Part shown: in pieces, positions 3,162 to 55,847 of the stretch
How positions within the stretch are numbered: position 1 is the first letter of the stretch
How the letters are laid out: each line of letters starts with the position of its first letter
Origin: Caulobacterales bacterium
GTDB lineage: Bacteria; Pseudomonadota; Alphaproteobacteria; Caulobacterales; Caulobacteraceae
Direction: 5' to 3'
Length of the DNA stretch: 64,000 bases
Assembly (NCBI GenBank): GCA_019510435.1
Contig: JAEKKJ010000006.1
Coordinates: 62,001-126,000 of the forward strand
The notes under the pieces: generated by a model
Database searches by the model: none
What the model was told of the DNA's origin: nothing
What the model saw: only the letters and a program-made list of their open reading frames with translations
Translations under genes and position numbers: made by a program

Positions 3162-4127
3162 CTACGCCATCCCGGGCGTCGTCACCGCGCGCACGTCCAC
3201 CGTCCGGCCGCACTGGTCGCAGGCCAGGCGCGGCTCCAGCACATGGCCGCAGGGCCGGTGCCAGGTGATCAGCGGCGGTCCGGCCTGACCCGCGAGCCAG
3301 CGGTCGCCCCACCGATTAAGCTCGGCGATCAGGGGATAGAGGTCGCGGCCCTCGTCGGTCAGGCGGTACTCCCAGCGCTCCGGCCGCTCCTGGTAGAGCT
3401 GGCGGCGCAGCACCCCCAGGTCCACCAGCCGCGCCAGCCGGTCGGCGAGGATATTGGTGGCGATGCCCAGGGCCGCCTGGAAGTCGTTGAACCGTCGCCG
3501 GCCCAGGAAGGCGGCGGCGATGACGTGGCTGGTCCAGCGGTCGCCCAGCACCTGGAAGGCGCGGTCCAGCATCGGGTTGCCCTGGTTCAGGCCGCCCGCC
3601 GGCACGATGGAGCGACGCTGCGCGCGCGGCGGCAGCGAGGGCTCCAGCCGCGCCCCCGGTCCATCCAGCACATAGACGTCGCGCGGCGAGACCGACTGGT
3701 CGCAGCAGCCGCAGCGCAGCTCGGGCGTGAACTCGTGGCCGCAGTCGTGGCGCAGGCGGTGAACCGGATTGGCCGGATCGTAGAACCAGCGCTTCTCCCA
3801 GCGGATGATGGTCAGGGCCACGGGGTAGAGGTCGAGGCCCATCTCGGTGAGCCGGTACTCGTCGCGCGGTGGGCGCTCCTGGTAGCGCTGCTTCTCCAGG
3901 ATGCCGGCGGCCTGCAGGCGGCGCAGGCGGTCGGTCAGCAGGCTGCGCGCCAGGCCGATGCGGCCCTGGAACTCGTCGAACCGGCGCACCCGCTGGAACG
4001 CCAGGAAGAGGATCATCAGCGTCCAGCGGTCGCCCAGGATGTTGAGCGCGCGGGCGGCGGAATTGGCCTGGACGAGCTGGGGGGCCGGCGGCTCTTGCGG
4101 AACGTCGGGTCGGGGCGCGCTGGCCAT
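3162..4127 (-). CDS. Tandem-HxlR transcriptional regulator (two wHTH domains in one chain)
   Basis: A 321-residue protein, about twice the usual HxlR length, made of two HxlR winged-helix modules. Module 1 (about residues 20-165) has ILGDRWTLMIL, RFDEFQ and LLTDRLRRL; module 2 (about 185-315) has VLGDRWTSHVI, RFNDFQ and ILADRLARL. Each module ends in a CGH...CxxC-type cysteine/histidine cluster (CGHEFTPELRCGCC and CGHVLEPRLACDQC) that could hold zinc. HxlR proteins normally work as dimers of single modules, so this resembles a covalent pseudo-dimer. It is convergent with the SnoaL operon. A second tandem-HxlR gene lies at 12531-13481. Probably regulates this catabolic cluster; effector and direction of control are unknown. 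Confidence 0.88.
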   Translation of the reverse strand: MASAPRPDVPQEPPAPQLVQANSAARALNILGDRWTLMILFLAFQRVRRFDEFQGRIGLARSLLTDRLRRLQAAGILEKQRYQERPPRDEYRLTEMGLDLYPVALTIIRWEKRWFYDPANPVHRLRHDCGHEFTPELRCGCCDQSVSPRDVYVLDGPGARLEPSLPPRAQRRSIVPAGGLNQGNPMLDRAFQVLGDRWTSHVIAAAFLGRRRFNDFQAALGIATNILADRLARLVDLGVLRRQLYQERPERWEYRLTDEGRDLYPLIAELNRWGDRWLAGQAGPPLITWHRPCGHVLEPRLACDQCGRTVDVRAVTTPGMA

Positions 4128-4170: not shown

Positions 4171-4280
4171 AGAGCCTGTCCCTTTTTGATGGAACATCAA
4201 AAAGGGGAAGAACAGGCTCGTCACTTTGGTCGACGAGCACGATTCAGACTCTTGTCGATTCCGACAAAGTCATCGTGCTC
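4171..4280. repeat. Dispersed palindromic repeat, copy 1
   Basis: A 110-bp element that matches 45183-45293 almost base for base. It contains a perfect 12-bp hairpin (CCCTTTTTGATG / CATCAAAAAGGG, 3-nt loop) framed by AGCCTGT/ACAGGCT, then a second dyad GAGCACGA...TCGTGCTC enclosing TTGTCG/CGACAA. Compared with copy 2, the first stem has a T-A to G-C paired change, so the fold is kept although the sequence differs. The right end supplies the stop codon and last codons of the nitronate monooxygenase gene (4270-4280). No T tract follows either hairpin, so it is not a classical terminator. Probably a REP/MITE-like genomic repeat. Confidence 0.85.
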
Positions 4281-5190
4281 TCGCTCTGCGGTAGTCCGCG
4301 GCCAAGGTCTCGACGATGTCGGCCAGCGGCTCAACCGTCCGCACCTCGCCCGCGCCCTGCCCCGCCGACCAGACGTCGCGCCAGCGCGCGGCGGCCTCCT
4401 CGGGCCGGCCCAGGCTGATCTCGGCCTTGGTCTTCAGGCCGTCGGCGTCGTAGCCGGCCGCGGCCAGGCTGGCGCGCAGCCAGTTGGCCGGGATCCCCGT
4501 GAGCGCGGCGGAGGTGACGATGTCCTCGGCATTGGCCTCCACCAGCATCTGCTTGTAGCCCGGGACCGCCAGGCTCTCGGCGCAGGCGATCAGCCGGGTG
4601 CCCAGATAGGCCAGGTCCGCGCCCAGCAGTTGCGCCGCGCGCACGGCCCGGCCGGTCCCGATGCCCCCGCCCAGCACGATCGTGCCGTCGAACACCTCCC
4701 GCACCGCCGGTGCAAAGGCGAAGCCGGCGATCTGGCCCGTATGGCCGCCGGCGCCGGCCGCGACCAGGATCAGGCCGTCGACCCCGGTCTTGGCCGCCTT
4801 CTGCGCATAGGTCAGGGAATTGACGTCGGCATAGACCAGGCCGCCGTAGCCCTGGATCGCCTCCACCACCGCCGACGGGCTGCCAAGCGCGGTGATCACG
4901 ATCGGCGGACGGTGCTTCAGCACCAGTTCAAGCTCCTCCTCCCAGCGGGCGTAGGAGCGGTGGACCATGATGTTGACCGCCCAGGGTGGCGCGTCGGCGG
5001 GGAGCGTCGCGGCGATGCGGCCCATCCAGGCGTCGAGGTCGTCCAGGGTGCGGGCGTTGTTGGCCGGGAACGAGCCGATGATCCCGGCCTTGCACGCCGC
5101 CAGCACCATCTCCACGCCCGAGACCAGGAACATGGGCGCGGCGATGGCCGGCAGCCTCAGGCGCTCGGCAATGTGGGGCGGCAGGCTCAC
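4270..5190 (-). CDS. Nitronate monooxygenase / 2-nitropropane dioxygenase family flavoprotein
   Basis: A 306-residue TIM-barrel FMN protein of the NMO family. It shows LPAIAAPMFLVSG at the N-terminus, AAGAGGHTG around residues 145-152 (the GGH histidine, residue 150, aligns with the family's catalytic His) and the phosphate-binding loop LGGGIGTG near 173-180. The GTG start at 5190 overlaps the stop of the DUF1295 gene (GTGA) and gives the family's normal N-terminus. Family members oxidise alkyl nitronates, but many in catabolic clusters act on unknown enones or as detoxifying flavoenzymes. The last codons and stop lie inside repeat copy 1, which appears to have reset the C-terminus to RRARAR. 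Second gene of a two-gene operon preceded by motif copy 6042-6057. Confidence 0.9.
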   Translation of the reverse strand: MSLPPHIAERLRLPAIAAPMFLVSGVEMVLAACKAGIIGSFPANNARTLDDLDAWMGRIAATLPADAPPWAVNIMVHRSYARWEEELELVLKHRPPIVITALGSPSAVVEAIQGYGGLVYADVNSLTYAQKAAKTGVDGLILVAAGAGGHTGQIAGFAFAPAVREVFDGTIVLGGGIGTGRAVRAAQLLGADLAYLGTRLIACAESLAVPGYKQMLVEANAEDIVTSAALTGIPANWLRASLAAAGYDADGLKTKAEISLGRPEEAAARWRDVWSAGQGAGEVRTVEPLADIVETLAADYRRARAR

Positions 5191-5996
5191 GCCGCTTCCG
5201 GCGGCTTGGGCGGCCAGGGCAGGAAGCCGGACGTTCGGCGCATGTAGTCCTCGTAGGCGGGCTTGCGCCGGCGCATGCGGCCTTCGACGGTGGGCACGCC
5301 GCTCCAGCGGGTCAGGGTGTAGACCAGGTAGATCGGCCCGACGACCGCCAGGAGGCCGAGCCGGCTCTCCGCCGCCACCAGCCACAGGCCCCACCAGACG
5401 CAGGCGTCGCCGAAGTAGTTCGGATGGCGGGTGTAGCGCCAGAGCCCGCGGTCCAGCACCTGGCCGGCGTTGGCCGGGTCTTTCTTGAAGCGCACGAGCT
5501 GCCAGTCGGCGACGGATTCGAACAGCAGCCCGAAGACCGCGAGCGCCGCCCCGGCCAGGCCCACGGCCCCGAGCTGCGCCGGCTGCGGCGCGACCTGCCC
5601 CAACTGCACCGGCAGGCTCACCAGGAACAGCAGCGGCATCTGCAGCACGAACACCAGGCGCAGGGCCGCGTAGCCGTAGTTCCAGCCGCGCTCGGCCTTG
5701 GCCTTGTCCAGCAGCCGCACATAGCGCCCGTCCGGCCCGTGGTCGCGCCAGCGCCACAGCATGTAGCCCCCGAGCCGCAGCGCCCAGGTTACGCAGAGCG
5801 CGGTCAGCACCGCGCGGCGTTCGGTCCCGCCGCCGACCTGGATGAAGGTCGACACCGCCACCAGCCCCATGCCCAGGCCCCAGAGGCTGTCCACGGGCGT
5901 GCAGTCGCGCATGGCCACGCAGATCGCCCAGGCCGCCGCGAACAGCGCCACGACGACGGCCGCATTCACCGCCAGGACCACGAAGACGTCAGGCAT
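5187..5996 (-). CDS. DUF1295 / steroid 5-alpha-reductase-like integral membrane protein
   Basis: A 269-residue polytopic membrane protein with five to six hydrophobic stretches. The C-terminal part has LWRYTRHPNYFGDACVWWG, the hallmark of the DUF1295 / 3-oxo-5-alpha-steroid 4-dehydrogenase C-terminal family, whose NADPH-dependent members reduce steroid or fatty enones. ATG at 5996 is preferred over the upstream in-frame ATG at 6035 because GGGGGAG sits just upstream of it. Its stop overlaps the nitronate monooxygenase start, so the two are co-translated; a membrane enone reductase beside a flavin oxygenase fits processing of a lipophilic substrate. The shared motif copy lies 46 bp upstream of the start codon. 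Confidence 0.88.
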   Translation of the reverse strand: MPDVFVVLAVNAAVVVALFAAAWAICVAMRDCTPVDSLWGLGMGLVAVSTFIQVGGGTERRAVLTALCVTWALRLGGYMLWRWRDHGPDGRYVRLLDKAKAERGWNYGYAALRLVFVLQMPLLFLVSLPVQLGQVAPQPAQLGAVGLAGAALAVFGLLFESVADWQLVRFKKDPANAGQVLDRGLWRYTRHPNYFGDACVWWGLWLVAAESRLGLLAVVGPIYLVYTLTRWSGVPTVEGRMRRRKPAYEDYMRRTSGFLPWPPKPPEAA

Positions 5997-6041
5997 CCGG
6001 CTCCCCCAAACCCGCCGCGCCAGGGCGGCGTGCATTTGACA

Positions 6042-6057
6042 GTCTTTCTATGCAAGT
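6042..6057 (-). promoter_or_regulatory. Shared cluster motif, copy 1
   Basis: Plus-strand GTCTTTCTATGCAAGT, matching the consensus GTATCGTTATGCAAGT at the ends (GT...TATGCAAGT). It lies 46 bp upstream of the DUF1295 start on the minus strand and 35 bp upstream of the divergent SDR start. A TTGACA sequence begins at 6036 on the plus strand. Likely operator or activator site of the cluster regulator. Confidence 0.55.
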
Positions 6058-6091
6058 TAACCTGTCGCCGCAAGATCGCGAAGGGGATGAC

Positions 6092-6916
6092 ATGGCGGAG
6101 TTCAGCGGCAAGGTGGCCCTGGTCACGGGCGCGGCGGGCGACATCGGCGCGGCGGCGGCGGCCGCTTTCGCCGAGGCGGGCGCGACGGTGGTGGTCACCG
6201 ACCGGCGGGCGGACGCCCTGAAGGACGTGGCCGCGCGGCTGACGGCGGGCGGCGCCACCGTGGTCGTCCAGGACGCCGACCAGACCGATCCCGAGGCGGT
6301 GGGCTGGCTGTTCGACACCATCCAGGGCCGGTGCGGGCGGCTGGACGCCGCCTTCATCAACGCCGGCTACGGCCGCTACGGACCGCTCATCGACATGCCC
6401 TTCGACCAGTGGCGCAAGCACGTGGACGTCAACCTGAACGGCGGGTTCCTGATGGCCCAGGGCGCGGCGCGGGAGATGCGGCGGGCCGGAAACGGCGGCT
6501 CGATCGTGATGACGGCCTCCACTGCGGCGACGCACATCTGCGACCTGCTCGGCGCCTATGCGGCCTCCAAGGCGGGCGTGCGCATGCTGGCGCGGTCCCT
6601 GGCCTCGGAGCTGGGGGTGTGGCGCATCCGGGTGAACCTGATCCTGCCAGGCGTGGTCGAGACCGCCATGACCCGCTCGCTGATCGACGACCCGGCCGTG
6701 CGCGCCGATGTGCTGTCGAACACGCCGGTCGGTCGACTCGGACAGCCTGAGGACATCGCCCGCCTGGCCCTGTTCCTGAGCAGCGAGGCCGCCGGCTACA
6801 TGACCGGCGCGGAGGTCCTGGTCGACGGCGGCCAGACCCTGCACGGCTACCCCCGCTGGTTCAGCGCGGACTACGCCGAGCCGGGCGCCGAGTGGACGCC
6901 GCATAGCGCCGGTTGA
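6092..6916 (+). CDS. Short-chain dehydrogenase/reductase
   Basis: A 274-residue classical SDR oxidoreductase. TGAAGDIG (residues 12-19) binds NAD(P); INAG is at 89-92; the catalytic Ser143, Tyr156 and Lys160 are in place (YAASK); the PGVVET loop and a C-terminal GAEVLVDGG complete the fold. An aspartate in VVVTDRR after beta-2 suggests NAD(H) preference. The start at 6092 has AAGGGGA a few bases upstream; an in-frame ATG at 6050 lies inside the conserved motif and is rejected. Transcribed divergently from the DUF1295-NMO operon. Probably oxidises a hydroxyl of the cluster substrate to a ketone before CoA-dependent steps; specificity cannot be read from sequence. Confidence 0.9.
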   Translation: MAEFSGKVALVTGAAGDIGAAAAAAFAEAGATVVVTDRRADALKDVAARLTAGGATVVVQDADQTDPEAVGWLFDTIQGRCGRLDAAFINAGYGRYGPLIDMPFDQWRKHVDVNLNGGFLMAQGAAREMRRAGNGGSIVMTASTAATHICDLLGAYAASKAGVRMLARSLASELGVWRIRVNLILPGVVETAMTRSLIDDPAVRADVLSNTPVGRLGQPEDIARLALFLSSEAAGYMTGAEVLVDGGQTLHGYPRWFSADYAEPGAEWTPHSAG

Positions 6917-6931
6917 GGCGGCGCGCAGCCT

Positions 6932-8725
6932 CTACCCCAGCACCATCACCCCGGCATCCGGCGCCTCGGCAAACAGCCGGTCCACCTCGCCGGCGCGGCG
7001 GTCGATGACGGCGCGGCGGTTGATGGTGCCCTTGTCGGAGATCTCGTGGGCGTTGGCGTTGGGCGGCTCGGCCAGCAGCAGCGCCCGCTTCACCCGCGCC
7101 GCGCCGCCGTGCTGGCCGGCGTTGAACGCCGCGAGCCGGCGGCCGATCTCATCCCGGTTCGCGTCCGGCTTGGCCCACAGCATCACGCCGAGGTACGGCC
7201 GCCCGTCGTCGCAGAGCACCAGATCCGTGACCAGCGGCGACAGGGCGCGCAACAGGCCGTCTCGCAGGGCGCCGCCGTAGACCCAGGTCCCGCTCGAGAG
7301 CTTGAACTCTTCCGCCGCGCGGCCGGCGAAGGCCAGGCCCTGGGTCGGGTCGGCCGGGTCGTGGAACACGGCCAGGTCGCCGGTGCGGTAGAAGCCCTCC
7401 TCGTCGAAGGCCAGGGCCGTCTTCTCCGGCTCGTCGAGATAGCCGGCGGTGACATTGGGCCCGCGGGCGCGCACCTCGTAGCGCTCGCCCGCCGGCTGCA
7501 GCTTCACCGTGGTTCCCGGCGCCGGCAGGCCGATGCCCACCTTGTCGGTCGGGAAGTGGATGACCATGAAGGCCGAGACGGTCTCGGTCATGCCATAGCC
7601 GCTGGTCATCATGATCCGGCAGCCGGTCTCGGCCACCGCCAGCGCCTGGAGGCGGTCGTAGACCGTCTGCGAGAGGCCCGCGCCGCCGTACAGCATCAAC
7701 CGCATCTTGGCGAAGAACGTCCGCCGCAGGACCGGGTCGGTTTCCAGGGCGTCCACCAGCATGGCGTAGCCCAGCGGGACGTTGTTGAAGTAGCTGACCG
7801 CGATCTCCCGCAGATTGCGGATCGAGGTCTCGAACAGGCCCGGCGCGGGCTTGCCGTCGTCGATATAGAGCGTCCCGCCCTCCAGCAGGGTGGTGCGCAG
7901 CACGAAGGCCCCGGCCGCGTGGTGCCAGGGCAGCCAGTCCAGCATGACGTCGTGCCAGCCGGCCGCCTCGCCGATGGTCTGCTGGCACTGGGCGCTGTTG
8001 GCGGCGAGGTTGTCGAAGGTGATCGGCACGACCTTCGGCAAGCCCGTGGAGCCCGAGGTCAGCATCAGGGCCGCGCGGTCCTGCGGCTTCAGGGCCGCGA
8101 TGCTGGCCGCCACCTGCGGCGTGACCGGCGTCGCCAGCACGGATCCATAGGCGACCGCAGGCTTGCCCAGCCGGGCCGGATCGCCGGTGACGATCTGCGC
8201 CCCGCCCAGGTCCAGGGCCTCCAGCGCGCCGCCTGCGACCAGAGTATCTTCGGCGAAGATCACCGCGGGCCGCACCTTGGCGATCACGTGCGCCAGCCGC
8301 CCGTAGTCGCCGCCTAGGGCGGCATAGGTGGTGCTGACCGGACAAGCCGCACGGCCGGACGCCTGGGCCGCGAAGCTCATCACCGCAAAGGCCGGGGTGT
8401 TGCCCGCCAGGATCAGCACCGGCCCCGGCCGCGGGCAGTCCAGCAGCCACTGGGTGGCCGCGTCCATGTCGCGCTTCAGCTGGGCGAAGGTTGTGAAGAC
8501 CCACTCGCCGCCCATGCCGCGCTGGGCCAGCGCCGGCTTGTCGGCCGAGACCGCCGCGCGCCGGGCGAACTCGGCCGGGATATTGGGCTCATAGGGCCGC
8601 AGCGGCACCTTCGAGGTGATCAGGATCGCCCCGTCCGTGCGCCGCTCGACCTCGAGGTCCACCGGCATCAGCCGCGCCTCGCGGAACGGCGCCGCGGGCG
8701 GAGGCGCGACGGCGACGCCGGCCAC
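6932..8725 (-). CDS. Feruloyl-CoA synthase-like AMP-forming acyl-CoA ligase
   Basis: A 597-residue ANL-superfamily ligase that activates a carboxylic acid to its CoA thioester via an acyl-adenylate. The P-loop LTSGSTGLPKVV is at about 222-233, WLPWHH follows, and YGMTETVS and YRTGDLA are conserved. The late motif FKLSSGTWVYGGALRD (instead of the usual IKSGG hinge) and the N-terminal VERRTDGAILI are distinctive of feruloyl-CoA synthase. The GTG start at 8725, three bases after the thiolase stop, is kept because the residues before the internal ATG (8668) fit the family N-terminus. Operon with the upstream thiolase. The substrate is probably an aryl-propenoic or other hydrophobic acid; true feruloyl activity is not shown. 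Confidence 0.88.
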   Translation of the reverse strand: MAGVAVAPPPAAPFREARLMPVDLEVERRTDGAILITSKVPLRPYEPNIPAEFARRAAVSADKPALAQRGMGGEWVFTTFAQLKRDMDAATQWLLDCPRPGPVLILAGNTPAFAVMSFAAQASGRAACPVSTTYAALGGDYGRLAHVIAKVRPAVIFAEDTLVAGGALEALDLGGAQIVTGDPARLGKPAVAYGSVLATPVTPQVAASIAALKPQDRAALMLTSGSTGLPKVVPITFDNLAANSAQCQQTIGEAAGWHDVMLDWLPWHHAAGAFVLRTTLLEGGTLYIDDGKPAPGLFETSIRNLREIAVSYFNNVPLGYAMLVDALETDPVLRRTFFAKMRLMLYGGAGLSQTVYDRLQALAVAETGCRIMMTSGYGMTETVSAFMVIHFPTDKVGIGLPAPGTTVKLQPAGERYEVRARGPNVTAGYLDEPEKTALAFDEEGFYRTGDLAVFHDPADPTQGLAFAGRAAEEFKLSSGTWVYGGALRDGLLRALSPLVTDLVLCDDGRPYLGVMLWAKPDANRDEIGRRLAAFNAGQHGGAARVKRALLLAEPPNANAHEISDKGTINRRAVIDRRAGEVDRLFAEAPDAGVMVLG

Positions 8726-8727
8726 CC

Positions 8728-9948
8728 TCAGACGCCCACGACCAGGCTGACGGTCGTGGTGGTGGAGCCGCCGATGTTCAGCGTCTGCACCGTCTTGGCG
8801 CCCTCGACCTGGTAGCCGCCCGCCCGGCCGGTCACCTGCTTGAAGGCGTCCAGCGCCATGCGCACGCCGGTCGCGCCCACCGGGTGCCCGCCGCCGATCA
8901 GGCCGCCGCTGGGATTGATCGGCAGCCGGCCGCCGATCTCGATGGAGCCGTCCTCGATCGCCTTCCAGGCCTCGCCCGGCACGGTCAGGCCGAGGTGCTC
9001 GATGGCCATGTATTCGGTGGTGGTGAAGCAGTCGTGGGTCTCCACGGCGTCCAGCTCGGCGACATCCGCGATCCCGGCCCGGCGGCGCGCGGCGTCCACC
9101 GCCTGTTTCACCCGCGGGAAGACATAGAGCTCCCCGGCGCTGGCGCGGACCTTACGCTCGTAGCTGATCGGCGCGGAGGTGTGCCCCCAGCCCTTGATCT
9201 GCGGCAGGCTCTCCAGGGGAATGCCGCGCTTGGCCGCATAGTCGGCGGCGGCCTTGTCCGAGGCCAGGAACACCACCGCCGAGCCGTCGGTCACCTGGCC
9301 GCAGTCGTTCTTGCGGATCATGCCTTCGACCACCGGATTGGCCTCGTCGTCGGCGGTGAAGCTCTTCTCGTTGAAGCCCCACTGGCGGGTCTGGGAGTTG
9401 GGGTTCTTCCTGGCGTTGGCGAAGTTGATCTCCGCGATCCGCATCAGGTGCTCGTACTTCAGCCCGAAGCGGCGGTCGTACTCCTCGCCGAGGTCGGAGA
9501 AGGCGCGCGGCCAGAGGAAGGTCGCGTCCTGGAATTCGTGCCCGGTCCAGGCCGCCGCGCCCAGGTTCTGGGCCGCCTGCTGGCCGGAGACGTTGCGCAT
9601 CATTTCCAGGCCGACGACGCAGGCGGTGTCGTAGCGGCCGGCCTCGATCTCGGCGGTGGCCGCCAGGATCGCCACGCTGCCGGAGGCGCAGGCCGCCTCG
9701 TGCCGGGCGGTGGGCATGCCGTCGAAGTCCGGATGCACCAGGCCGAAGAAGCCGCCCAGCAGGCCCTGGCCGGCGAAGAGGTCGCCCACGAAGTTGCCCA
9801 CGTGGCCGGTCTCGATGTCCTTGGGCTCCAGGTCGACCGCGGCCAGCCCCTCGCCGACCACCTCGGCGAAGGCGTCGGCGAAGTCCATCTGCTGCCGCGC
9901 CCAGTTCTTGGCGAAGTCGCTCTGCCAGCCGCCCAGAATATAGACCAT
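8728..9948 (-). CDS. Thiolase (SCP2-type acetyl-CoA acetyltransferase)
   Basis: A 406-residue thiolase-fold enzyme. The acyl-accepting cysteine is Cys87 in HEAACASGS; HDCFTTTE and GGGHPVGATG carry the remaining catalytic His/Cys positions. This spacing and the HDCF motif are typical of the SCP2/lipid-transfer thiolases rather than the short-chain PhaA type. It cleaves a 3-ketoacyl-CoA to a shortened acyl-CoA plus acetyl- or propionyl-CoA. ATG has GAGGAC upstream. It leads a two-gene unit with the feruloyl-CoA-synthase-like ligase, an arrangement consistent with side-chain shortening of the activated acid. Its promoter region contains motif copy 9992-10007, which itself overlaps the 3' end of the upstream SDR gene. 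Confidence 0.92.
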   Translation of the reverse strand: MVYILGGWQSDFAKNWARQQMDFADAFAEVVGEGLAAVDLEPKDIETGHVGNFVGDLFAGQGLLGGFFGLVHPDFDGMPTARHEAACASGSVAILAATAEIEAGRYDTACVVGLEMMRNVSGQQAAQNLGAAAWTGHEFQDATFLWPRAFSDLGEEYDRRFGLKYEHLMRIAEINFANARKNPNSQTRQWGFNEKSFTADDEANPVVEGMIRKNDCGQVTDGSAVVFLASDKAAADYAAKRGIPLESLPQIKGWGHTSAPISYERKVRASAGELYVFPRVKQAVDAARRRAGIADVAELDAVETHDCFTTTEYMAIEHLGLTVPGEAWKAIEDGSIEIGGRLPINPSGGLIGGGHPVGATGVRMALDAFKQVTGRAGGYQVEGAKTVQTLNIGGSTTTTVSLVVGV

Positions 9949-9991
9949 GGTGTCCTCGCTGGCCGGGGCCCGGCCGCTTCAGAAAGAGTGA

Positions 9992-10007
9992 GTTCGATTA
10001 TACAAGT
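9992..10007 (-). promoter_or_regulatory. Shared cluster motif, copy 2
   Basis: Plus-strand GTTCGATTATACAAGT, 44 bp upstream of the thiolase start on the minus strand. This copy contains TATAAT on the minus strand, so a -10 role is possible here. It overlaps the last codons and stop of the SDR gene ending at 9998. Confidence 0.5.
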
Positions 10008-10918
10008 TCGTCGTCCGCCACCAAGGCGCGGCGTCTGTCCATGAAGGCGGCGAAGGCCTGGTGGGAATCCGCGTAGGCCTCGCGGGGCTCGGCGGTCAGC
10101 GCCAGGTGCGCCGCGGCGCCGACCGGACCCTCGAGCGCAACCGGCGGCCCCTCCACGGCGAAGGCGGCGCGAAGCCGTCCGCCGCCGACCACGAAGGTCT
10201 GGCCGCTGACGTCGCAGGCCTCGCCGGCCAGCCAGGCCACCAGGGGCGCCACCGCCTCGGGGTCCATCCGCGCCGCCTGCTCGGGCGTCACGAACGGCGC
10301 GGTCATCGGGGTCGCCGCATAGGGCGCGATGGCGTTGATCAGCAGGTTCCGCGGCCGGCCCTCCACCGCCAGGCCGCGCACCAGCCCGATGAGCGCCGCC
10401 TTCGACGAGGCGTAGGCCGCCATGCCGTCGCCGCCGTGCAGGCCGGCCGACGACGTGCTGACCACGATCCGGCCCGCGGGCGCCTGTGACAGCACCGGCC
10501 AGGCGGCCAGCACCAGGTGGAAGGTCCCGAAGAAGTTGATGTCGAAGACGCCGCGGAAGCTGGCGAGCGTCTGACGATGCAGGCGCCTGGTCTCCGGCAC
10601 CCCGGCGTTGGCGATCACCGCGTCCAGCCGGCCGAACGCCGCCAGCGCCTGGGCGACCAGGGCCTCGCCCGTCTCCGGCGCCTCCGCAGGGTCGTAGTTG
10701 GCCACGGCGCGGCCGCCGCTCGCCTGGATTTCGGCAACGACATCGTCGGCGCTGGAGGGTTGGCTGCGGTCGGTCCAGCGGTTGTTGACCACCACCGCCG
10801 CGCCCCGCACCGCCAGGTCCAGGGCGTAGGCGCGGCCCAGCCCCTTGCCCGCGCCGGTGACGATCGCCACGCGGCCGGCGAGGTCCTTGGCAGTCTCCGC
10901 GGGCGGCTCGGCCGGCAT
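9998..10918 (-). CDS. Short-chain dehydrogenase, 17-beta-HSD4 / multifunctional-enzyme-like
   Basis: A 306-residue SDR with TGAGKGLG (21-28), ANAG near 93-96, catalytic serine in STSS (144-147), Tyr159 and Lys163 in YASSK. The insertion after beta-2 (VVNNRWTDRS) and the extended C-terminus resemble the dehydrogenase domain of peroxisomal-type multifunctional enzyme 2 / 17-beta-HSD4, which oxidises 3-hydroxyacyl-CoA. This would place it one step before the neighbouring thiolase. ATG at 10918 is chosen because CAGGAG lies close upstream; an in-frame start at 10948 has no such site. It has its own motif copy at 10954-10969. Activity on an acyl-CoA is an inference from similarity and context. Confidence 0.88.
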   Translation of the reverse strand: MPAEPPAETAKDLAGRVAIVTGAGKGLGRAYALDLAVRGAAVVVNNRWTDRSQPSSADDVVAEIQASGGRAVANYDPAEAPETGEALVAQALAAFGRLDAVIANAGVPETRRLHRQTLASFRGVFDINFFGTFHLVLAAWPVLSQAPAGRIVVSTSSAGLHGGDGMAAYASSKAALIGLVRGLAVEGRPRNLLINAIAPYAATPMTAPFVTPEQAARMDPEAVAPLVAWLAGEACDVSGQTFVVGGGRLRAAFAVEGPPVALEGPVGAAAHLALTAEPREAYADSHQAFAAFMDRRRALVADDELV

Positions 10919-10953
10919 GCTCCACTCCTGTTCGGCGCGATCATCCACAGATC

Positions 10954-10969
10954 GTATCGTTATGCAAGT
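10954..10969 (-). promoter_or_regulatory. Shared cluster motif, copy 3 (consensus)
   Basis: Plus-strand GTATCGTTATGCAAGT, identical to the consensus, 36 bp upstream of the SDR start at 10918 on the minus strand and 137 bp upstream of the divergent 102-residue gene at 11106. Confidence 0.6.
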
Positions 10970-11105
10970 GACAGCGGCTCAGGCGACGAAGGTGGGGACA
11001 CGCACGGCGCTTTCGGAGAAAATGGCGGACACGCGCGCGCTTCGCATCCCGGCTCGCAGGATGCTCTCGAGGGCGTGTCCCAACCCTCCCGGCAAGGAGC
11101 ACGAA

Positions 11106-11414
11106 ATGTCAGTTGTCCGTATCTCCCTCGCCCGGTTCGACGCCGACCGGTACGACGCGATCCGGCAGATGCTGGACGAGTCCCAGGCCACCCTGGCCCC
11201 GGCCATCAAGGCGTTGCGGGGAAACCTCGCCTTCTATGCCGGCATCGATCGCGAGAACTGTGCCATGCAGAACGTCAGCGTCTGGGAGACGCTGGCCGAC
11301 GCCAAGCAGCTGGACACCCTGAAGGCGATGCTGGACCTGGCGCCGCGCTTCGCCGCGGCGGGCGCGCGCTTCGAGCGGCCGATCACCAATCACGAGACGC
11401 TCTGGAGTCTCTAG
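11106..11414 (+). CDS. Small conserved protein, possible dimeric alpha/beta-barrel (ABM-like)
   Basis: A 102-residue soluble protein without signal peptide or cysteine cluster. The layout (beta strand SVVRISLARF, helix with RQMLDES, strand LAFYAGID, VSVWETLADAKQLD, final helix and strand) resembles the ferredoxin-like ABM / stress-responsive alpha-beta-barrel families, in which VxVWE-like strands line a small active site. I do not recognise the exact family. A strong AAGGAG is placed seven bases before the ATG. It is divergent from the SDR at 9998-10918 and converges with the DapB-like gene, overlapping it by four bases at the 3' ends. Possibly a decyclase or monooxygenase-like accessory enzyme for the pathway. 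Confidence 0.75.
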   Translation: MSVVRISLARFDADRYDAIRQMLDESQATLAPAIKALRGNLAFYAGIDRENCAMQNVSVWETLADAKQLDTLKAMLDLAPRFAAAGARFERPITNHETLWSL

Positions 11415-12466
11415 GCGAGATCGCCGCGGAACGGCGTCGCCACCGGCCGCAGCAGCACGCCCGGCGCCGCCGCGCAGACGACGGGGATCGCGTTGATCAC
11501 CGCGCCGGCCACGCCCAGCTGCTCGGCGGAGGTCGGCGTCGCGTCGCCGGGGCGCTTCTCCAGGTCGACGGACAGCCGCACGCCCGGCTGGCCAGTCACA
11601 TGGATGCGCCAGAGCGGCGGCTCGGGCGTGTCCAGGTGCGCGCTCTCCATGTGCCAGTGGATCGACATCACCAGCCTTGGCGCCCCGGCGACGACGCCCA
11701 CCCAGCGCCAGTTCAGGTGGCTGATGCCGCCCTTGCGGATCGGCCCGGCGGCGATCGCCAGGTCCTCGGTGGCCGCGAACACCCGATGATCGGTGTCGAC
11801 CCGCTCCAGCGCCAGGCCCAGGCGCTCGGCCAGCGCCGCCAGCACCTCGGCATACATGCCGTTCAGCGCGGAGGCCGGCCCCCAGTCCGGGTCGTTGGGG
11901 TTCGCGGACGCCGGATCCTCGCCAAAGCCCAGCACGCCAAAGACGTAGTCCGGGTTGCGCATGGCGCGGCAGTCGACGCTCTCGACTACCTCCACCTGGT
12001 CCAGCTCGGCGCAGAGGCCGCTGGCCGCCACCGCCAGCTGTTCGGCCGCGAAGCCGGGGTTGAGCCCTGCGCCCATCAGCGTGGAGCCGCCGGCTGCGCA
12101 GGCCGCCTCCAGCGCCGCCAGCCGCGCGCCGCCCCAGTAACCGGGATCGGAATAGCCATTGATGCTGATGACGTTCTTGCCCGAGGCCAGCAGCCGGATG
12201 ATCTCCGCGTCATGCGAGCCGTAGGGCGGCGCCAGGCGCGCGCAGTGGATCACCACGTCGGCGTCCAGCGCCAGGATCTCGTCCACGTCGCGCGTCGCGA
12301 CCACCCCCACCGGCGGGCGGCGCGCGAGCTCCCCGGCGTCGCGCCCGGCCTTGCTCTCGCCATAGACGTAGAGGCCCACCAGCTGCATCGCCGGATGGTC
12401 CAGCACCGCGCGCAGGCACGTCCGGCCCATGGCGCCCGTGGCCCACTGGATGACGCGATAGGTCAT
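11411..12466 (-). CDS. DapB-like NAD(P)-binding oxidoreductase
   Basis: A 351-residue protein with an N-terminal Rossmann fold (YRVIQWATGAMGRTCLRAVL) of the dihydrodipicolinate reductase N-terminal type, then DVVIHCA and the conserved SINGYS and LMGAGLNPGF segments found in the family of dihydrodipicolinate reductase-like proteins common in actinobacterial and sphingomonad steroid or terpene clusters and in 2,4-diaminopentanoate dehydrogenases. It is not the lysine-pathway DapB, which is shorter (about 270 residues). Start ATG has GGGAGGAG immediately upstream and motif copy 12503-12518 sits 37 bp upstream. Reaction unknown; probably an NAD(P)H-dependent redox step in this pathway. Confidence 0.82.
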   Translation of the reverse strand: MTYRVIQWATGAMGRTCLRAVLDHPAMQLVGLYVYGESKAGRDAGELARRPPVGVVATRDVDEILALDADVVIHCARLAPPYGSHDAEIIRLLASGKNVISINGYSDPGYWGGARLAALEAACAAGGSTLMGAGLNPGFAAEQLAVAASGLCAELDQVEVVESVDCRAMRNPDYVFGVLGFGEDPASANPNDPDWGPASALNGMYAEVLAALAERLGLALERVDTDHRVFAATEDLAIAAGPIRKGGISHLNWRWVGVVAGAPRLVMSIHWHMESAHLDTPEPPLWRIHVTGQPGVRLSVDLEKRPGDATPTSAEQLGVAGAVINAIPVVCAAAPGVLLRPVATPFRGDLA

Positions 12467-12502
12467 GGCTCCTCCCGAACGCTGAGAAGCCTAGCCAAGT
12501 TA

Positions 12503-12518
12503 GTATCGTTATGAAAGT
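12503..12518 (-). promoter_or_regulatory. Shared cluster motif, copy 4
   Basis: Plus-strand GTATCGTTATGAAAGT, one mismatch to consensus, 37 bp upstream of the DapB-like start on the minus strand, in the short gap after the second tandem-HxlR gene. Confidence 0.58.
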
Positions 12519-12530
12519 TAGTTCTGGCCT

Positions 12531-13481
12531 TCAGGCGACGAGTTCGGGCGCCTGGGCCTCGATGACCTCGAAGGTCACGTCATGCGGCTCCACCGGCTGG
12601 CCGCAGCAGGAACAGGTCACCGCCGGCTCCAGGGCGTGCCCCGGCGCGCCGTCGCGGCCCTTGTGGCGCAGGATCAGCGGCGGACCCTCGGGCGAGCAGT
12701 AGTACTTGTCGCCCCACTGCAGCAGCATCAGCAGCACGGGGTAGTAGTCGATCCCCTTCTCCGTCAGCCGGTACTCCGAGCGTCGACCGCCCACCTCGTG
12801 CGCGCGAATGACGCGCTGGGCGGTCAGCCACGACAGGCGCTCGGAGAGGATATTGGTGGCCATGGCGGTGTCGCGGTGGATCTCGTCGAAGCGGCGCAGG
12901 CCGGTGAAGATCGAGCGCAGCGCCAGGCTCGCCCACCGGTCGCCGGTGATCTGGGCCACGTCGACCATCAGGCTGGAGGCGCCCTCCACCGCGTGGCGCT
13001 GCTGGCGCCGGCGGCTGTAGCGCGGCGCCATCCAGCCCACGCCCGGCCCCTCGGCCCAGTCCACGTCGCGGGCGCTTATCTCGTCGCCGCAGCTGAGGCA
13101 GGTGGGCACGGGATCGAAGGCGTGGCCGCAGGTGCGGTGGCGCAGGCGCAGCTGCAGCCGGCCCGAGCTGGTCGCCCATCGCCGCTCCCAGCGCAGCATC
13201 ATCAGCGAGGGCCAGTAGAGGTCACGGCCCTTCTGGGTCATGCGGTACTCGAAGCGCGGCGGCGCCTCGCTATAGGCGCGCTTCTCCATGACGCCCGCGG
13301 CCAGCAGGCGCTTCAACCGGTCGCTGAGCAGGGTCTGCAAAAGGCCGGTGCGGGTGCGGAACTCGTCGAACCGGCGCGCGCCGATCCAGCTGGCCTCGAG
13401 GATCAGCAGCACCGAGGTGTCGCCCACCACCTCCAGCGCCCGCCAGATGGAGCAGGTGCGGATGAACTTGGGCGGGTTCAT
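12531..13481 (-). CDS. Tandem-HxlR transcriptional regulator, second paralogue
   Basis: A 316-residue regulator built from two HxlR winged-helix modules like the gene at 3162-4127. Module 1 has VVGDTSVLLIL, RFDEFRTRTG and LLSDRLKRLL; module 2 has ITGDRWASLAL, RFDEIHRDTA and ILSERLSWL. Cysteine clusters end both halves: CGHAFDPVPTCLSC in the first and GHALEPAVTCSCC in the second, where the first cysteine of the CGH motif is missing. The two halves are not identical, so the chain could read an asymmetric DNA site. A diverged copy of the shared motif lies 57 bp upstream of its own start, consistent with autoregulation. It sits in the middle of the regulated units, making it the better candidate for the cluster regulator. 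Confidence 0.88.
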   Translation of the reverse strand: MNPPKFIRTCSIWRALEVVGDTSVLLILEASWIGARRFDEFRTRTGLLQTLLSDRLKRLLAAGVMEKRAYSEAPPRFEYRMTQKGRDLYWPSLMMLRWERRWATSSGRLQLRLRHRTCGHAFDPVPTCLSCGDEISARDVDWAEGPGVGWMAPRYSRRRQQRHAVEGASSLMVDVAQITGDRWASLALRSIFTGLRRFDEIHRDTAMATNILSERLSWLTAQRVIRAHEVGGRRSEYRLTEKGIDYYPVLLMLLQWGDKYYCSPEGPPLILRHKGRDGAPGHALEPAVTCSCCGQPVEPHDVTFEVIEAQAPELVA

Positions 13482-13537
13482 GCGGCGATCGTGTCCTCTC
13501 TGGCCGGCCGGGCGGGGGCCGGAGAGTCGCGGAACGG

Positions 13538-13553
13538 GTGCGGCTATGCAAGC
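13538..13553 (-). promoter_or_regulatory. Shared cluster motif, copy 5 (diverged)
   Basis: Plus-strand GTGCGGCTATGCAAGC, 57 bp upstream of the tandem-HxlR start. The TATGCAAG core and outer GT are kept; the middle differs, as might be expected of a weaker autoregulatory site. Confidence 0.42.
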
Positions 13554-13566
13554 GGCCTCTTGCCGC

Positions 13567-15255
13567 TCATTCAGCCGCCACGCCCGCCAGCTCCCGCCGC
13601 ACCACCTTGCCCAGGGGATTGCGCGGCAGCGCCTCCACCACGCGCAGCTTCTCCGGAAGCTTGAAGGTGGCGATGTCGTGCGCCTTGAGGTGGGCCGTCA
13701 GCTCCTCCAGGCTGAGCGCCTCGCCGGGCCGCAGCGCGACGACGGCGCACACCCGCTCGCCCAGGCGCTCGTCGGGATAGGCCGCGCAGCTCGCCTCGCG
13801 CACCTTGGGATGGCTCTCGATCAGCACGTCCAGCTCGGCCGGGGAGATGTTCTGGCCGCCGCGGATGATGATCTCCTTGCAGCGGCCGACGAAGCGATAG
13901 AACCGGCCGCCGCCGTCCGGCGCGATCTCGAACAGGTCCCCGGTCCGGAAGAAGCCCTGGTCGTCGAAGGCGGCCGCCGACAGCTCCGGCGCCTGCCAAT
14001 AGCCGTCGAAGGTCATGGCGCCGGCGATGCGCAGCTCGCCTTCCCGGCCCGGCTCGGTGATCTCCTCGCCGGTGGCCAGGTCGACGAGCCGGGTGCGGAT
14101 CTTCGCTGGGAAGGCCGCTGGCCAGGACAGGCCCGCGGCGCCGAAGCGCGGAAAGTAGCGGGCCCTCTGCTCGGGGTCGGGGATCGCCTGGCCGGTGGAG
14201 AACAGCGAGGTCCCCTCGTTGGAGCCGAAGACGTTCATCACCGTCACGCCGTGGCGGTCCTGCCAGCCCTTGACCATCCAGGGCGCCAGCGGCGCCGAGC
14301 CCGAGCCCAGGCAGCGCAGTCGGCTGAGGTCCGCGGCGCCCAGCAGGGCCTCGTTCTGCAGCAGCATGTTCAGCACCGCCGGCGGGGCCACGGTGTAGGC
14401 CACCCCCTCGTCCTGCATCTGGCCCAGGAACACGGGCAGGTCGAAGGGATGGTGCTGCACCAGCCGGCCCTGGCAGAGGATCCAGGTCATCACCATCCCG
14501 CCCAGGGCGGCGATATTGATCAGCGGAAACGGGTTCAGGATCGTGTCGCCGGGCCTCAGGCCCGCGGCCTCGACCAGCGCCTCGCCATTGACCACCCAGT
14601 GGTCGTGGTGGCGCGGCACGCCCTTGGGCATGGCCTCGGTGCCGGAGGTCCAGCAGATGGTGAGGGCCTCGGCGGCGTCGAGGTCCGCAGGCTCGGGATA
14701 GGCGCTCCCCGCGGCCGTGGCGAGCAGCGCCTCCAGGGACTCGACCCCCGCGGGCGTCTCAGTATCGAGGCTCACCAAGGCCGCGCCAATGACGCCCTCG
14801 GCCTTCAGCTCAGCCAGCAGCGCGGCGTGGTCGAAGCCGTGGAACACCCCCGCCGTCAGGCACACCTTGGGCGCCACGCTGGGCAGGATCTGGCGCAGCT
14901 CGTGGCCGCGATAGGCCATGGCGGCCGGGCTGAAGATCGCGCCCATCCGCGCGCAGGCCAGGAAGGCCAGCACGCCTTCGGCCACGTTCGGCAGCTGGGT
15001 GAAGAGTACGTCCCCGCGACCCAGGCCCAGCTGCGCCAGGCCGTGGCAGAGCGCGTCGACCCGCGCGTCCAGCTCGGCGTAGGTCAGCCGCTGCGGCGGC
15101 GTCCCCACCAGCGCCTCGCGGTTGGGCGGATCGGCCAGCGCCTCGGCGTGTGGCCGCGCCGCCACCGCGGCCCGGAACAGGGAATCGACGGTCTGGCCGC
15201 GCCACCAGCCCTTGTCGCGGTACTCGGCCACGCGGTGCGGCGGACTCGGACGCAA
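13567..15255 (-). CDS. AMP-forming acyl-CoA ligase (long/medium-chain FadD type)
   Basis: A 562-residue ANL-family ligase: P-loop CWTSGTEAMPKG at about 201-212, FGSNEG in place of the YGxTE motif, FRTGDLF, and the hinge/catalytic segment IIIRGGQNISPAELD; the C-terminal lysine is in NPLGKVVRRE. It activates a carboxylic acid to acyl-CoA. No in-frame ATG gives a sensible N-terminus; TTG at 15255 is chosen because GGGAGACAGGG precedes it, with GTG at 15231 as alternative. The reading frame remains open upstream through the motif copy 15332-15347, which argues against a longer protein. A second ligase in the cluster suggests two acid intermediates are activated, or that the substrate and a side-chain product need different enzymes. 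Confidence 0.87.
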   Translation of the reverse strand: MRPSPPHRVAEYRDKGWWRGQTVDSLFRAAVAARPHAEALADPPNREALVGTPPQRLTYAELDARVDALCHGLAQLGLGRGDVLFTQLPNVAEGVLAFLACARMGAIFSPAAMAYRGHELRQILPSVAPKVCLTAGVFHGFDHAALLAELKAEGVIGAALVSLDTETPAGVESLEALLATAAGSAYPEPADLDAAEALTICWTSGTEAMPKGVPRHHDHWVVNGEALVEAAGLRPGDTILNPFPLINIAALGGMVMTWILCQGRLVQHHPFDLPVFLGQMQDEGVAYTVAPPAVLNMLLQNEALLGAADLSRLRCLGSGSAPLAPWMVKGWQDRHGVTVMNVFGSNEGTSLFSTGQAIPDPEQRARYFPRFGAAGLSWPAAFPAKIRTRLVDLATGEEITEPGREGELRIAGAMTFDGYWQAPELSAAAFDDQGFFRTGDLFEIAPDGGGRFYRFVGRCKEIIIRGGQNISPAELDVLIESHPKVREASCAAYPDERLGERVCAVVALRPGEALSLEELTAHLKAHDIATFKLPEKLRVVEALPRNPLGKVVRRELAGVAAE

Positions 15256-15331
15256 ACCCTGTCTCCCTGGCAGGCGGCTGTTCGGGCCGAGCTTCCCATG
15301 GCCCGATGTTGGCGCAGAGGTCGCATGGTGA

Positions 15332-15347
15332 GTATCGTAATGCAAGT
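15332..15347 (-). promoter_or_regulatory. Shared cluster motif, copy 6
   Basis: Plus-strand GTATCGTAATGCAAGT, one mismatch to consensus, 77 bp upstream of the TTG start (15255) of the acyl-CoA ligase. It is the right-hand limit of the motif-bearing region. Confidence 0.57.
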
Positions 15348-15428
15348 CGCTGCGAGCCAACGCCCAACCACATCGAACCCTTATGCGCGCCGGGCCTAGG
15401 TGGGCGCTTCCTAGAGTGGAGCGAACGT

Positions 15429-17388: not shown

Positions 17389-18456
17389 CTAGACGGCGAA
17401 CACGGCGACCCGCGCGGCGTAGGCGCAGCGAGCGCCGGGCGGCAGTGAGACCATGCCTCGCGTGACGTCGGCCGGCCATTCGGCGCCATAGGGGTCGGGC
17501 AGGTTGAACTGGGGCTCGATGACCACGAATGGCTGGTCCGGCGGCGCATAGACCTGGACCGCATGGACGGGCGGGGACGGCGCCGTCACCCGCAGGCCGA
17601 GGCTCGCCGCCGGATCGAGGAGCTGGACCACCATCTCGCCGCCGTCCGCATCCAGGCCGGTGAAGCAGTCGTCCAGGTAGAGCGCGCCCAGCGCCTGTCC
17701 GGGGCCGCGGAAGTCGTAGGGGGTGCTCGCCACGTCCAGCAGGCGGCCGGTGGGCAGCACCTCGTCATAGTCGTTGACGTCCGCCCGGCGCGCGGCCGGG
17801 ACGCGGAGCCGGGCCTGGCCCCGGTCGCCGCTCGGCACGCGGAAGTAGGGGTGCCAGCCGGCGCCGAACGGCAGGGGCTCTGGCCCAAGGCTCAGCGCTT
17901 CCACCTGGAGCCGCAGCTCCCCGTCGCAAAGCCGCCACTCGAAGCTGAGGTCCGCGCCCCCCGGCCACCGTCCGCCAAAGTCGCCGGCCGCCAGCCGCCC
18001 CGTCACCCGATCGGGCGCGGCCTTTTCGTAGGGGATCGGCGTCGCCAGGATCAGGCCGTGCATCGCATAGGTCTCAGCCCCCGCGGCCTTGCCGCCCCAG
18101 TTGCGCGGCAGGCGGGCCGGGCGGCCGTCGATCGTCGTGTCGATCTCGCGGCTGTCGGCGCGGGGGCGGCCGCGGATCCGGTTGGCGTAGGGGATCAGCA
18201 GGGCGCCGCCGAACGCGAACGAACGGTTGCCGGCGAAGTCCTCCGGGCCGCCGTCCAGCTGCGCCGCCGCCTCGGCCAGCGGCGGCGCGTGCAGCAGATC
18301 CAGCCGCTGGCCCGAGGGCAGGGCGACGGTGGCCTGCAACAGCATGAATCCCCGGCCGGGCAGGACCACCGCCTCGACGACGCTGGCGCGGCCCGCGACC
18401 GGATCAGCCGCCAGGGTCACCGCCGGCAGGCCGCCGATGCGCGGAGCCTCCGCCAC
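17389..18456 (-). CDS. Aldose 1-epimerase (galactose mutarotase)-like protein
   Basis: A 355-residue protein with the galactose-mutarotase-like beta-sandwich pattern: GGALLIPYANRIRG, an internal HG (MHGLI), GWHPYFRVP with the catalytic-type histidine, and a late VQVYAPPDQPFVVIEPQ with the Glu equivalent to the GalM general base. It would interconvert alpha and beta anomers of galactose or a related aldose. The GTG start follows the GH1-like gene stop by three bases, so both are one transcript. Together with the divergent sugar-acid operon it fits a galactose-utilisation locus. It could act on a modified or bound sugar rather than free galactose. Confidence 0.85.
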   Translation of the reverse strand: MAEAPRIGGLPAVTLAADPVAGRASVVEAVVLPGRGFMLLQATVALPSGQRLDLLHAPPLAEAAAQLDGGPEDFAGNRSFAFGGALLIPYANRIRGRPRADSREIDTTIDGRPARLPRNWGGKAAGAETYAMHGLILATPIPYEKAAPDRVTGRLAAGDFGGRWPGGADLSFEWRLCDGELRLQVEALSLGPEPLPFGAGWHPYFRVPSGDRGQARLRVPAARRADVNDYDEVLPTGRLLDVASTPYDFRGPGQALGALYLDDCFTGLDADGGEMVVQLLDPAASLGLRVTAPSPPVHAVQVYAPPDQPFVVIEPQFNLPDPYGAEWPADVTRGMVSLPPGARCAYAARVAVFAV

Positions 18457-54445: not shown

Positions 54446-54950
54446 TTTCGATCAGCTTCCCGGAGGTGCAGGTCCCCGGAGGTGCGGCTCCCCCTGTGGG
54501 GGCTGTCGGGGGAGCCGCGTTCCGTACGCCCGAGGGGGGATTCGGGTGGCCGGGGTCGCAGTCGGGCGGCGGGGGAGGGAGAGAGCCGCGTCGCTGCTGA
54601 GAGGGACCTTCGCAGCCGCTTGCGGCGGCCGTAAGGCCGCTCCATGGCCCGTTCCAGCAGAGTTCGCCGCAGTTCAGCCGGTTCCGACACATGCCGGAAA
54701 CGCCAGGCGGCCAAAATTGCCCAGTTGTCGCGAATGAAGATCGCCCCCGCGCGCAGGCTTTTATGTCGGCAATACGGTGATCCGGGCGCGATCGGCCGCC
54801 GATCGCGGCGCCGATGACCTGAATGTTTCAGTTCGACCTCCGCGACTGAAACAAAGCGGCGCGCGCCCCTTCTTGCAACGGCCTGGGGGCCGATCGACCG
54901 GGCTTCAGGCCCGGCCGCGGCGACGTCGCAACCACCGAAGAGGTGTAACC
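54446..54950. other. 505-bp intergenic region before the EF-hand gene
   Basis: No credible coding sequence. It contains a GC-rich hairpin (54484-54518), a near-repeat CCCGGAGGTGC twice just before it, and an inverted repeat GTTTCAG (54825-54831)/CTGAAAC (54846-54852) about 100 bp before the EF-hand start that could be an operator. ATCGGCCGCCGAT at 54790-54802 is a further short palindrome. Confidence 0.6.
54484..54518. terminator. Strong GC hairpin after the SOS-box gene
   Basis: GCGGCTCCCCC pairs with GGGGGAGCCGC, an 11-bp perfect stem with a 13-nt loop, 39 bp after the stop of the 95-residue gene. No T run follows, so factor-independent termination is uncertain; it may stabilise the 3' end. 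Confidence 0.45.
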
Positions 54951-55679
54951 GTGCATATCTCAAGTCATTCAAACAGTTATGGAGCTGGCGAGACCCAGCG
55001 CGTGCTCAGCGCCCTGCTGAACGGCGCGCCGGGCGCCCGGCAGAAAGGGACCACCGCCGCCAACGACGGGGACGGCGACGACGCCGCGACCGCCGCGCCG
55101 CCCGGACCGCCGCCCGCGGGCGGGGCCAAGCAGTTCGCCCTCGGCACCCTGAAGAGCCTGCTCTCGGCCCAGGAGGGCCCGCCCTCCTCCGCCGACCTCG
55201 CCGGCCAGATCGTCAAGGCGGCCGACACGGACGGCGATGGGAACCTCACCGCCGACGAAATCGCCAAGGCCCTCGGCTCCTCCACCTCCGACAAGCTCAC
55301 GGCGGCGGTCGGCAAGCTGGACACCGATGGCGACGGCAAGCTCTCCGCGAGCGAGCTCACCGCAGCTCTGGACGCGCGCAAGGCCCATCACGGCCACCAC
55401 TACGGCGCCGCGAAGTCCAGCGCCGACCTGGCCTCGCAGCTGATCAAGACGGCGGACAGCGACGGCGACGGCTCGGTGAGCCAGGACGAGGTCAAGTCGC
55501 TCCTGGGCGATGCGGCCGGCGGCGACGCCTTCGCCACGGCGTTCGGCAAGCTGGATGGCGACGGCGACGGCAAGCTCTCGGCCAACGAACTGGCCTCGGC
55601 GATCGACGCGTTCCGCACCGCCCACTTCGGCGGCGCGAACTCGAACAGCGCCACGAGCTCGATCCAGGCGACCGCCTGA
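54951..55679 (+). CDS. EF-hand calcium-binding protein (four EF loops)
   Basis: A 242-residue protein with four canonical EF-hand loops: DTDGDGNLTADE, DTDGDGKLSASE, DSDGDGSVSQDE and DGDGDGKLSANE, in two pairs separated by a His-rich linker (HHGHHYG). Each has Asp at 1, 3, 5 and Glu at 12, so calcium binding is very likely. The N-terminal 60 residues are disordered, Ser/Gly/Pro-rich, with no signal peptide visible, so location (cytoplasm or export by a non-Sec route) is open. GTG at 54951 has GAGGTG nine bases upstream. Such calmodulin-like proteins recur in caulobacters without known roles. Confidence 0.9.
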   Translation: MHISSHSNSYGAGETQRVLSALLNGAPGARQKGTTAANDGDGDDAATAAPPGPPPAGGAKQFALGTLKSLLSAQEGPPSSADLAGQIVKAADTDGDGNLTADEIAKALGSSTSDKLTAAVGKLDTDGDGKLSASELTAALDARKAHHGHHYGAAKSSADLASQLIKTADSDGDGSVSQDEVKSLLGDAAGGDAFATAFGKLDGDGDGKLSANELASAIDAFRTAHFGGANSNSATSSIQATA

Positions 55680-55847
55680 TCCGTCGCGGCCGGCCTTCTG
55701 CAGAAGGCCGTGGCCGGCCGCCCCTTCCCGACCGCGCACCCAGCGGCGTCTTGCCCGAACATTTCAGGGGCGTCTTGATCCCCGTCATCCTCGCACTGGA
55801 CGCCCGTGTCATAAGCCGGACCTCAGGGAAGAGGAGATAGCTCCACA

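Follow-up and report, generated by a model that had tools for sequence, protein, structure and literature searches.

What is the short sequence that recurs before gene after gene in this stretch of DNA, and which protein reads it? The window, by which we mean the whole 64,000-nucleotide stretch analysed, covers positions 62001-126000 of contig 1 in a genome of 5.1 Mb, and an initial annotation had picked out in it six non-coding copies of a 16-bp motif as the mark of an undescribed regulon. All six sequences are found on the plus strand, at 6042, 9992, 10954, 12503, 13538 and 15332, and the motif is a 25-bp element, approximately AGTnAGT[A/C]TnnTTATGCAAGTnACT (Table 1). The claim of six copies holds for five strong sites, but 13538 is weak. 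Likeness to the 16-mer GTATCGTTATGCAAGT is narrower: 10954, 12503 and 15332 fit it with at most three mismatches (3 such matches in the window vs 0.04 expected from shuffles), but the other three are less alike, with four mismatches at 6042 and five each at 9992 and 13538 by our own count.

To score the sites, we used a 119-site profile trained on loci outside Caulobacteraceae, with a training set that was gathered using an earlier profile begun from this genome and its relatives. With this profile, the strong places in the window are only 12503, 6042, 10954, 15332 and 9992 (21.2-38.2 bits) and the next distinct place scores 7.1 bits, which bears out the statement that the window holds no further good copy. 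Site 13538 scores 15.3 bits in a profile that itself included it, and three close relatives (G009, G030, G016) have look-alikes in the corresponding position. The spacing of about 36-77 bp between sites and start codons agrees with the sequence except at 6042, where the DUF1295 frame offers a nearer ATG (6035) in addition to a second one at 5996; the 6042 site is also upstream of a plus-strand SDR with its ATG at 6092. Four extra copies lie less than 6 kb to the left of the window (contig 56703, 58449, 61700, 61795), on the opposite strand and preceding genes of that strand. The single direction reported for the six copies is true in the window, but cluster-wide the orientation follows the transcription unit.

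Table 1. Cluster genes and predicted operators (window positions unless marked as contig positions)
Feature	Position	Strand	Remarks
WYL protein, left end of cluster	contig 54814-55806		
Tandem-HxlR regulator 2, last gene of DUF1295-NMO-HxlR2 stretch	3162..4127	-	Pfam HxlR, two stretches
Nitronate-monooxygenase-like (NMO), predicted target	4270..5757	-	Domain scan of cluster proteins
DUF1295, predicted target	5187..6035 (start likely 5996)	-	Domain scan of cluster proteins
Operator (predicted), C class (GTC)	6037..6061	+	30.2 bits; same place in relatives; precedes DUF1295-NMO-HxlR2 (minus), also upstream of SDR at 6092 (plus)
SDR, divergent from 6042 site	6092..6916	+	
Acyl-CoA ligase, predicted target	6932..8725	-	
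SCP2-type thiolase, predicted target	8728..9948	-	
Operator (predicted), before thiolase-ligase unit	9987..10011	+	21.2 bits; E 1.43 genome-wide
SDR, predicted target	9998..10918	-	
Operator (predicted), A class (GTA), before SDR	10949..10973	+	25.9 bits
DapB-like, predicted target	11411..12466	-	
Operator (predicted), A class, before DapB-like gene	12498..12522	+	38.2 bits; nearly symmetric
Tandem-HxlR regulator 1	12531..13481	-	Pfam HxlR, two stretches; pLDDT 89.5, pTM 0.87
Weak degenerate site before HxlR1	13533..13557	+	Right half only; missed by genome-wide and 119-site profiles
Acyl-CoA ligase, predicted target	13567..15260 (start approximate)	-	
Operator (predicted), A class, before acyl-CoA ligase	15327..15351	+	24.2 bits

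A whole-genome search with a sequence-only profile of 43 sites (model R1 was built from 43 of 64 distinct sites, at least 20 bits) returned nine matches at E<=10, all in contig 1 at 56.7-77.3 kb, a 21-kb catabolic cluster; window site 13538 is not among these nine. Because 9 of 9 matches are confined to one cluster, the motif does not occur at random density genome-wide, the outcome that the initial annotation had named as counting against a regulon. With the 119-site profile, nine cluster sites score 19.4-38.2 bits, and the next place within 160 kb of the contig reaches 13.4. The regulon reaches left beyond the window and comprises about ten predicted promoters, which serve the RPE65-type oxygenase, TonB receptor, thiolases, CoA ligases, SDRs, DUF1295, NMO and DapB-like genes. 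Two further features of the contig may be recorded here. Several GTGTCGTTGCC-like direct repeats with weak profile scores lie outside the window at contig 1, 154109-154357, and are perhaps a repeat-protein gene, and the tRNA that ARAGORN places at window 18201-18287, with a two-base anticodon undetermined, is inside a coding region and probably spurious.

Motif matches (E<=0.5) occur in 32 of 100 genomes of the genus, which is very probably Phenylobacterium, since the near relatives from the tandem-HxlR scan are mostly so named. A column-permuted control profile matched 0 of the 100, an empty answer that alone, without a positive, shows nothing. In relatives the sites are conserved before orthologous genes, 24 thiolase-linked sites are present in the fetched regions, and 117 of 138 genus matches tallied are on contigs with a tandem or HxlR-like gene, many of the assemblies being fragmented. 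For 151 of 181 sites, an identified gene of matching orientation lies no more than 400 bp away; for 13, the only such gene has the opposite orientation, and 17 have none.

The cluster encodes two tandem-HxlR paralogues that are 43% identical, each with two stretches that match Pfam HxlR (PF01638; 106.2 and 150.9 bits against a gathering threshold of 20.8), and each half of the tandem protein matches HxlR structures. These proteins break the usual HxlR pattern, in which a chain has one domain and acts as a homodimer, in that two non-identical domains are present in a single chain, and the high pTM of the predicted structure (Table 1) suggests that the two domains may have a defined mutual arrangement. 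A His-Cys-Cys-Cys set follows domain 1 and a His-Cys-Cys set follows domain 2; in the alignment of 130 proteins each is retained by 127 or 128, which suggests that they are metal sites. PADLOC gave nothing but weak Csa3 matches, to both tandem proteins.

In the genus, the motif is present in 28 of 31 genomes with a tandem HxlR vs 4 of 69 without one (28/3/4/65; Fisher p 2.7e-17, for genomes that are related and in some cases incomplete). Presence of the regulator here means a full-length match with E below 1e-40, and diverged tandem frames (G018, G117, perhaps G122) were scored as absent. Three genomes have a tandem HxlR and no profile match (G081, G116, G119), and four have the motif and no full-length tandem match (G100, G109, G120, G122). 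The G122 site adjoins a diverged HxlR frame, G119 has altered sites that are visible to a weaker scan, and no site of at least 16 bits is found near the diverged tandem frames of G018 and G117.

To look beyond the genus, we used loci that were chosen by protein alignment alone, blind to DNA motifs; these are the best 78 of a larger set, from named genomes, and they span alpha-, beta-, and gammaproteobacteria. A site of at least 15 bits is present at 76 of these best 78 tandem-HxlR loci and a site of at least 18 bits at 72, and simulated sequences, one per locus, gave 3 and 0 of 78 at the same thresholds; the two of the best 78 with no site of at least 15 bits are L231 and L237. With the 21 Caulobacteraceae loci set aside, 51 of the remaining 57 have a site of at least 18 bits. 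At the Bradyrhizobium, Afipia, Ensifer and Shinella loci the regulator and site are kept and the neighbours differ, and an oxygenase homologue was not found within 10 kb on either side. The regulator is the common factor. From these comparisons of sequence, we conclude that the motif is real and family-wide rather than local, and that its best reading is as the putative operator of the tandem-HxlR proteins. The hint in the initial annotation that the tandem-HxlR protein binds the site agrees with this reading, with two amendments: the cluster has two such paralogues, and the regulon continues to the left of the window. The predicted regulon is well supported, and its original proposal is borne out by the restriction of the motif to one cluster, by the sites before orthologues, and by the co-occurrence with tandem HxlR in both the genus and the proteobacteria.

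The right half of the element, GCAAGT, is nearly invariant, and the left half is variable at position 2. The earlier description of the motif as not palindromic is roughly right, in that a weak dyad at the central T is not significant (346 of 2000 column permutations are as good). On the protein side, the recognition helix of domain 2 is conserved (A[TPS]NIL in most) and that of domain 1 is variable. In a comparison of 55 of the best 78 loci, which omitted Phenylobacterium, loci with two regulators or with any number of HxlR hits other than one, and those lacking a 17-bit site, the per-locus mean for C at position 2 is 10% at 16 TGLL-like loci vs 79% at 39 others; position 4 shifts between these groups too, and right-half position 11 shifts less. 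In two-regulator genomes, counted with a class rule slightly unlike that of the 55-locus comparison, A is present at position 2 before Lig2 (14/14), DapB (12/13) and SDRc (9/10) and at the Snoa2-proximal site (10/10), and C before RPE65 (9/9), DUF1295/NMO (15/15) and thioA (3/3) and at the TonB-proximal site (12/12). The exceptions are the thioB sites (T 3, C 5, A 1) and the type-3 tandem loci, both mixed, and G023, which has regulator 1 only and yet one C site, a misfit to the position-2 rule. Because the position-2 base tracks both the domain-1 helix class and the target class, these data suggest that domain 1 may read the left half, at loci that are related by descent.

Only this class association is claimed for position 2, because a rule based on Arg in the helix has exceptions (L180, L172, L203, L239, L234). 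Assignment of the half-sites by whole-domain similarity failed as well, domains 1 and 2 being equally near single-domain proteins (65/130 each way). At contig 1, 61700-61822, an A-class and a C-class predicted operator stand about 95 bp from each other in the gap that separates a SnoaL-like gene from a divergent TonB receptor, a pairing that recurs in many relatives. In G119 (L141, 3578-12951), six of six sites of at least 17 bits have A at position 0, where G is mostly found elsewhere, and no matching change is present in the domain-1 recognition helix of that genome.

Read in the gene direction, the element is AGTnACTTGCATAACnA[GT]ACTnACT. Among the sites kept as non-redundant (246 of 344), the commonest hexamer at the -35 place is TTGCAT (101/246), with TTTCAT at 38/246, and TANNNT is enriched 16-17 bp past TTGCAT (+30/+31; 39/246 sites, background 1.35 per offset). 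The DapB-like promoter has a -35 box TTTCAT (12516-12511) and a -10 box TAGGCT (12493-12488) with a spacer of 17, and the RPE65 promoter of this genome has TAGGTT at the -10 place. The earlier remark that the motif matches no promoter consensus therefore needs amending, in that TTGCAT of the conserved half fits a -35 box in the gene direction, but it agrees with a strict 9-of-12 sigma-70 scan, which called no promoter in the window region. The element would thus span the -35 box and spacer, and with a transcription start some 7 bp beyond the -10 box its centre would lie near -29. This coverage would explain the fixed orientation, and it makes repression by excluding RNA polymerase, that is, by promoter covering, the likely mode of action.

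Taking these points together, we think there is a good chance that the element is the tandem-HxlR operator and that two paralogues, acting as pseudo-dimers with different A/C preferences, repress through it a catabolic regulon of about ten promoters. Each polypeptide would be a covalent pseudo-dimer whose winged-helix domains differ as the half-sites do: the variable left half would be read by domain 1, and the near-invariant GCAAGT half by domain 2. The regulator would exclude RNA polymerase until a pathway metabolite binds. Where both regulators are present, regulator 1 probably prefers A at position 2 and regulator 2 C.

The same operator might instead serve activation, with the tandem HxlR binding over the -35 region and aiding RNA polymerase on poor promoters. 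We consider this unlikely because, with the enriched TANNNT taken as the -10 box, the centre of the element falls near -29, and such a location is more usual for repressors. Activation would nonetheless suit the strict orientation and the zero 9-of-12 sigma-70 promoters called in the region, and B. subtilis HxlR answers formaldehyde with more transcription, according to PMC7835342. Fixed orientation and a -35/-10 layout are also what the promoter of an alternative sigma factor would have, the tandem-HxlR linkage then being indirect, but the conserved 25 bp reach past the -35 hexamer in both directions and enter the spacer, the element follows tandem-HxlR genes across classes, a mirrored half precedes single-domain HxlR genes (see below), and a sigma-factor gene was not found among the scanned cluster proteins, so we regard this as very improbable.

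Less probable still is that another cluster regulator binds the motif, for example the WYL protein, which has its position at the left end of the cluster in its favour but is not among the homologues listed at other loci, where the motif persists beside tandem HxlR; moreover, the motif-bearing loci were picked by HxlR protein alone. A leader-RNA element or dispersed repeat would be multi-copy, intergenic and in one direction, as the motif is, but the element has no Rfam match, its flanks carry little information, and its distance to the start differs from promoter to promoter, which makes this the least probable explanation of all.

The tandem-HxlR operator, our preferred reading, can be compared with the sites of single-domain HxlR relatives. 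A mirrored left-half profile has its best match 30-130 bp upstream in 16 of 18 single-domain HxlR loci (median 18.7; at the same 18 loci, hybrid profile 13 and mirrored right half 6), several of the genes probably being orthologues. Our own contig outside the cluster peaks at 10.1, which 12 of 16 single-domain loci exceed by our own count. In carrying Arg, the single-domain recognition helices (e.g., LGISRTIIADRL) resemble that of domain 1 in many tandem proteins and differ from that of domain 2. The mirrored left half and these Arg helices suggest that fusion of two domains may have turned a symmetric operator into a hybrid one; searching the 18 single-domain promoters for palindromes independently of the profile was not decisive. 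It is quite possible, if somewhat less likely than not, that fused HxlR pseudo-dimers occur proteobacteria-wide with a hybrid operator, one half of which is retained from the palindromes of single-domain HxlR proteins and the other altered to double as the -35 box, and that two paralogues in one cell split the regulon by A or C at position 2.

By domain and fold the tandem proteins are of the HxlR family, and as far as we have seen their architecture and operator are unlike those of described members. They share the Pfam domain and winged-helix fold with single-domain HxlR/DUF24 proteins (B. subtilis HxlR 7bzg, YodB, HypR, QsrR; PA1607 2f2e, PA1374 4gcv), and the site of the single-domain relatives examined here shares its left half with the tandem-HxlR element. 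Here, however, each chain has two different HxlR domains, the operator halves are unlike, and the site would cover the -35 box at many promoters of a single catabolic cluster. In having one local regulator with many operators within one catabolic cluster, the system resembles KstR, but KstR, of the TetR family, is a dimer whose site is a palindrome, unlike a tandem HxlR with an unlike-halved one. No description of natural tandem-HxlR operators was found in the open-access literature, where "two HxlR" matches concern formaldehyde sensing or measurement, and within that literature the regulon may still be called undescribed. A large, apparently unstudied regulator subfamily thus gains a predicted binding site, so that its target genes become predictable from sequence across many proteobacteria, and expression offers a way to seek the substrate of these oxygenase/thiolase clusters. 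It would also be a natural example of operator symmetry being lost alongside the fusion of two DNA-binding domains.

The cluster as a whole includes two thiolases, two acyl-CoA ligases and several SDRs, plus DUF1295, NMO and DapB-like proteins, and it also encodes an RPE65-family oxygenase, a TonB receptor and SnoaL/LEH-like proteins. The closest solved chains to the oxygenase are carotenoid 9,10-dioxygenase (4.1e-61) and lignostilbene dioxygenase (4.4e-54), and we infer that the substrate is a hydrophobic compound that undergoes oxygenase cleavage before its breakdown as a CoA ester. YodB, HypR and HxlR have an N-terminal sensing Cys, and Cys is present at the aligned position in 44 of 45 TGLL-type tandem proteins vs 19 of 85 others, again under a class rule slightly unlike that of the 55-locus comparison. 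Regulator 1 has a Cys at position 10, near its N-terminus, that is mostly missing from other tandem proteins. An aldehyde signal for regulator 1 is a lead, given that aldehydes are products of cleavage oxygenases and that formaldehyde is sensed by HxlR (PMC7835342). At least seven relatives that have only regulator 2 (G001, G005, G067, G070, G079, G089, G092) keep a reduced set with three sites, consisting of the oxygenase, a SnoaL-like gene, regulator 2, DUF1295 and a thiolase.
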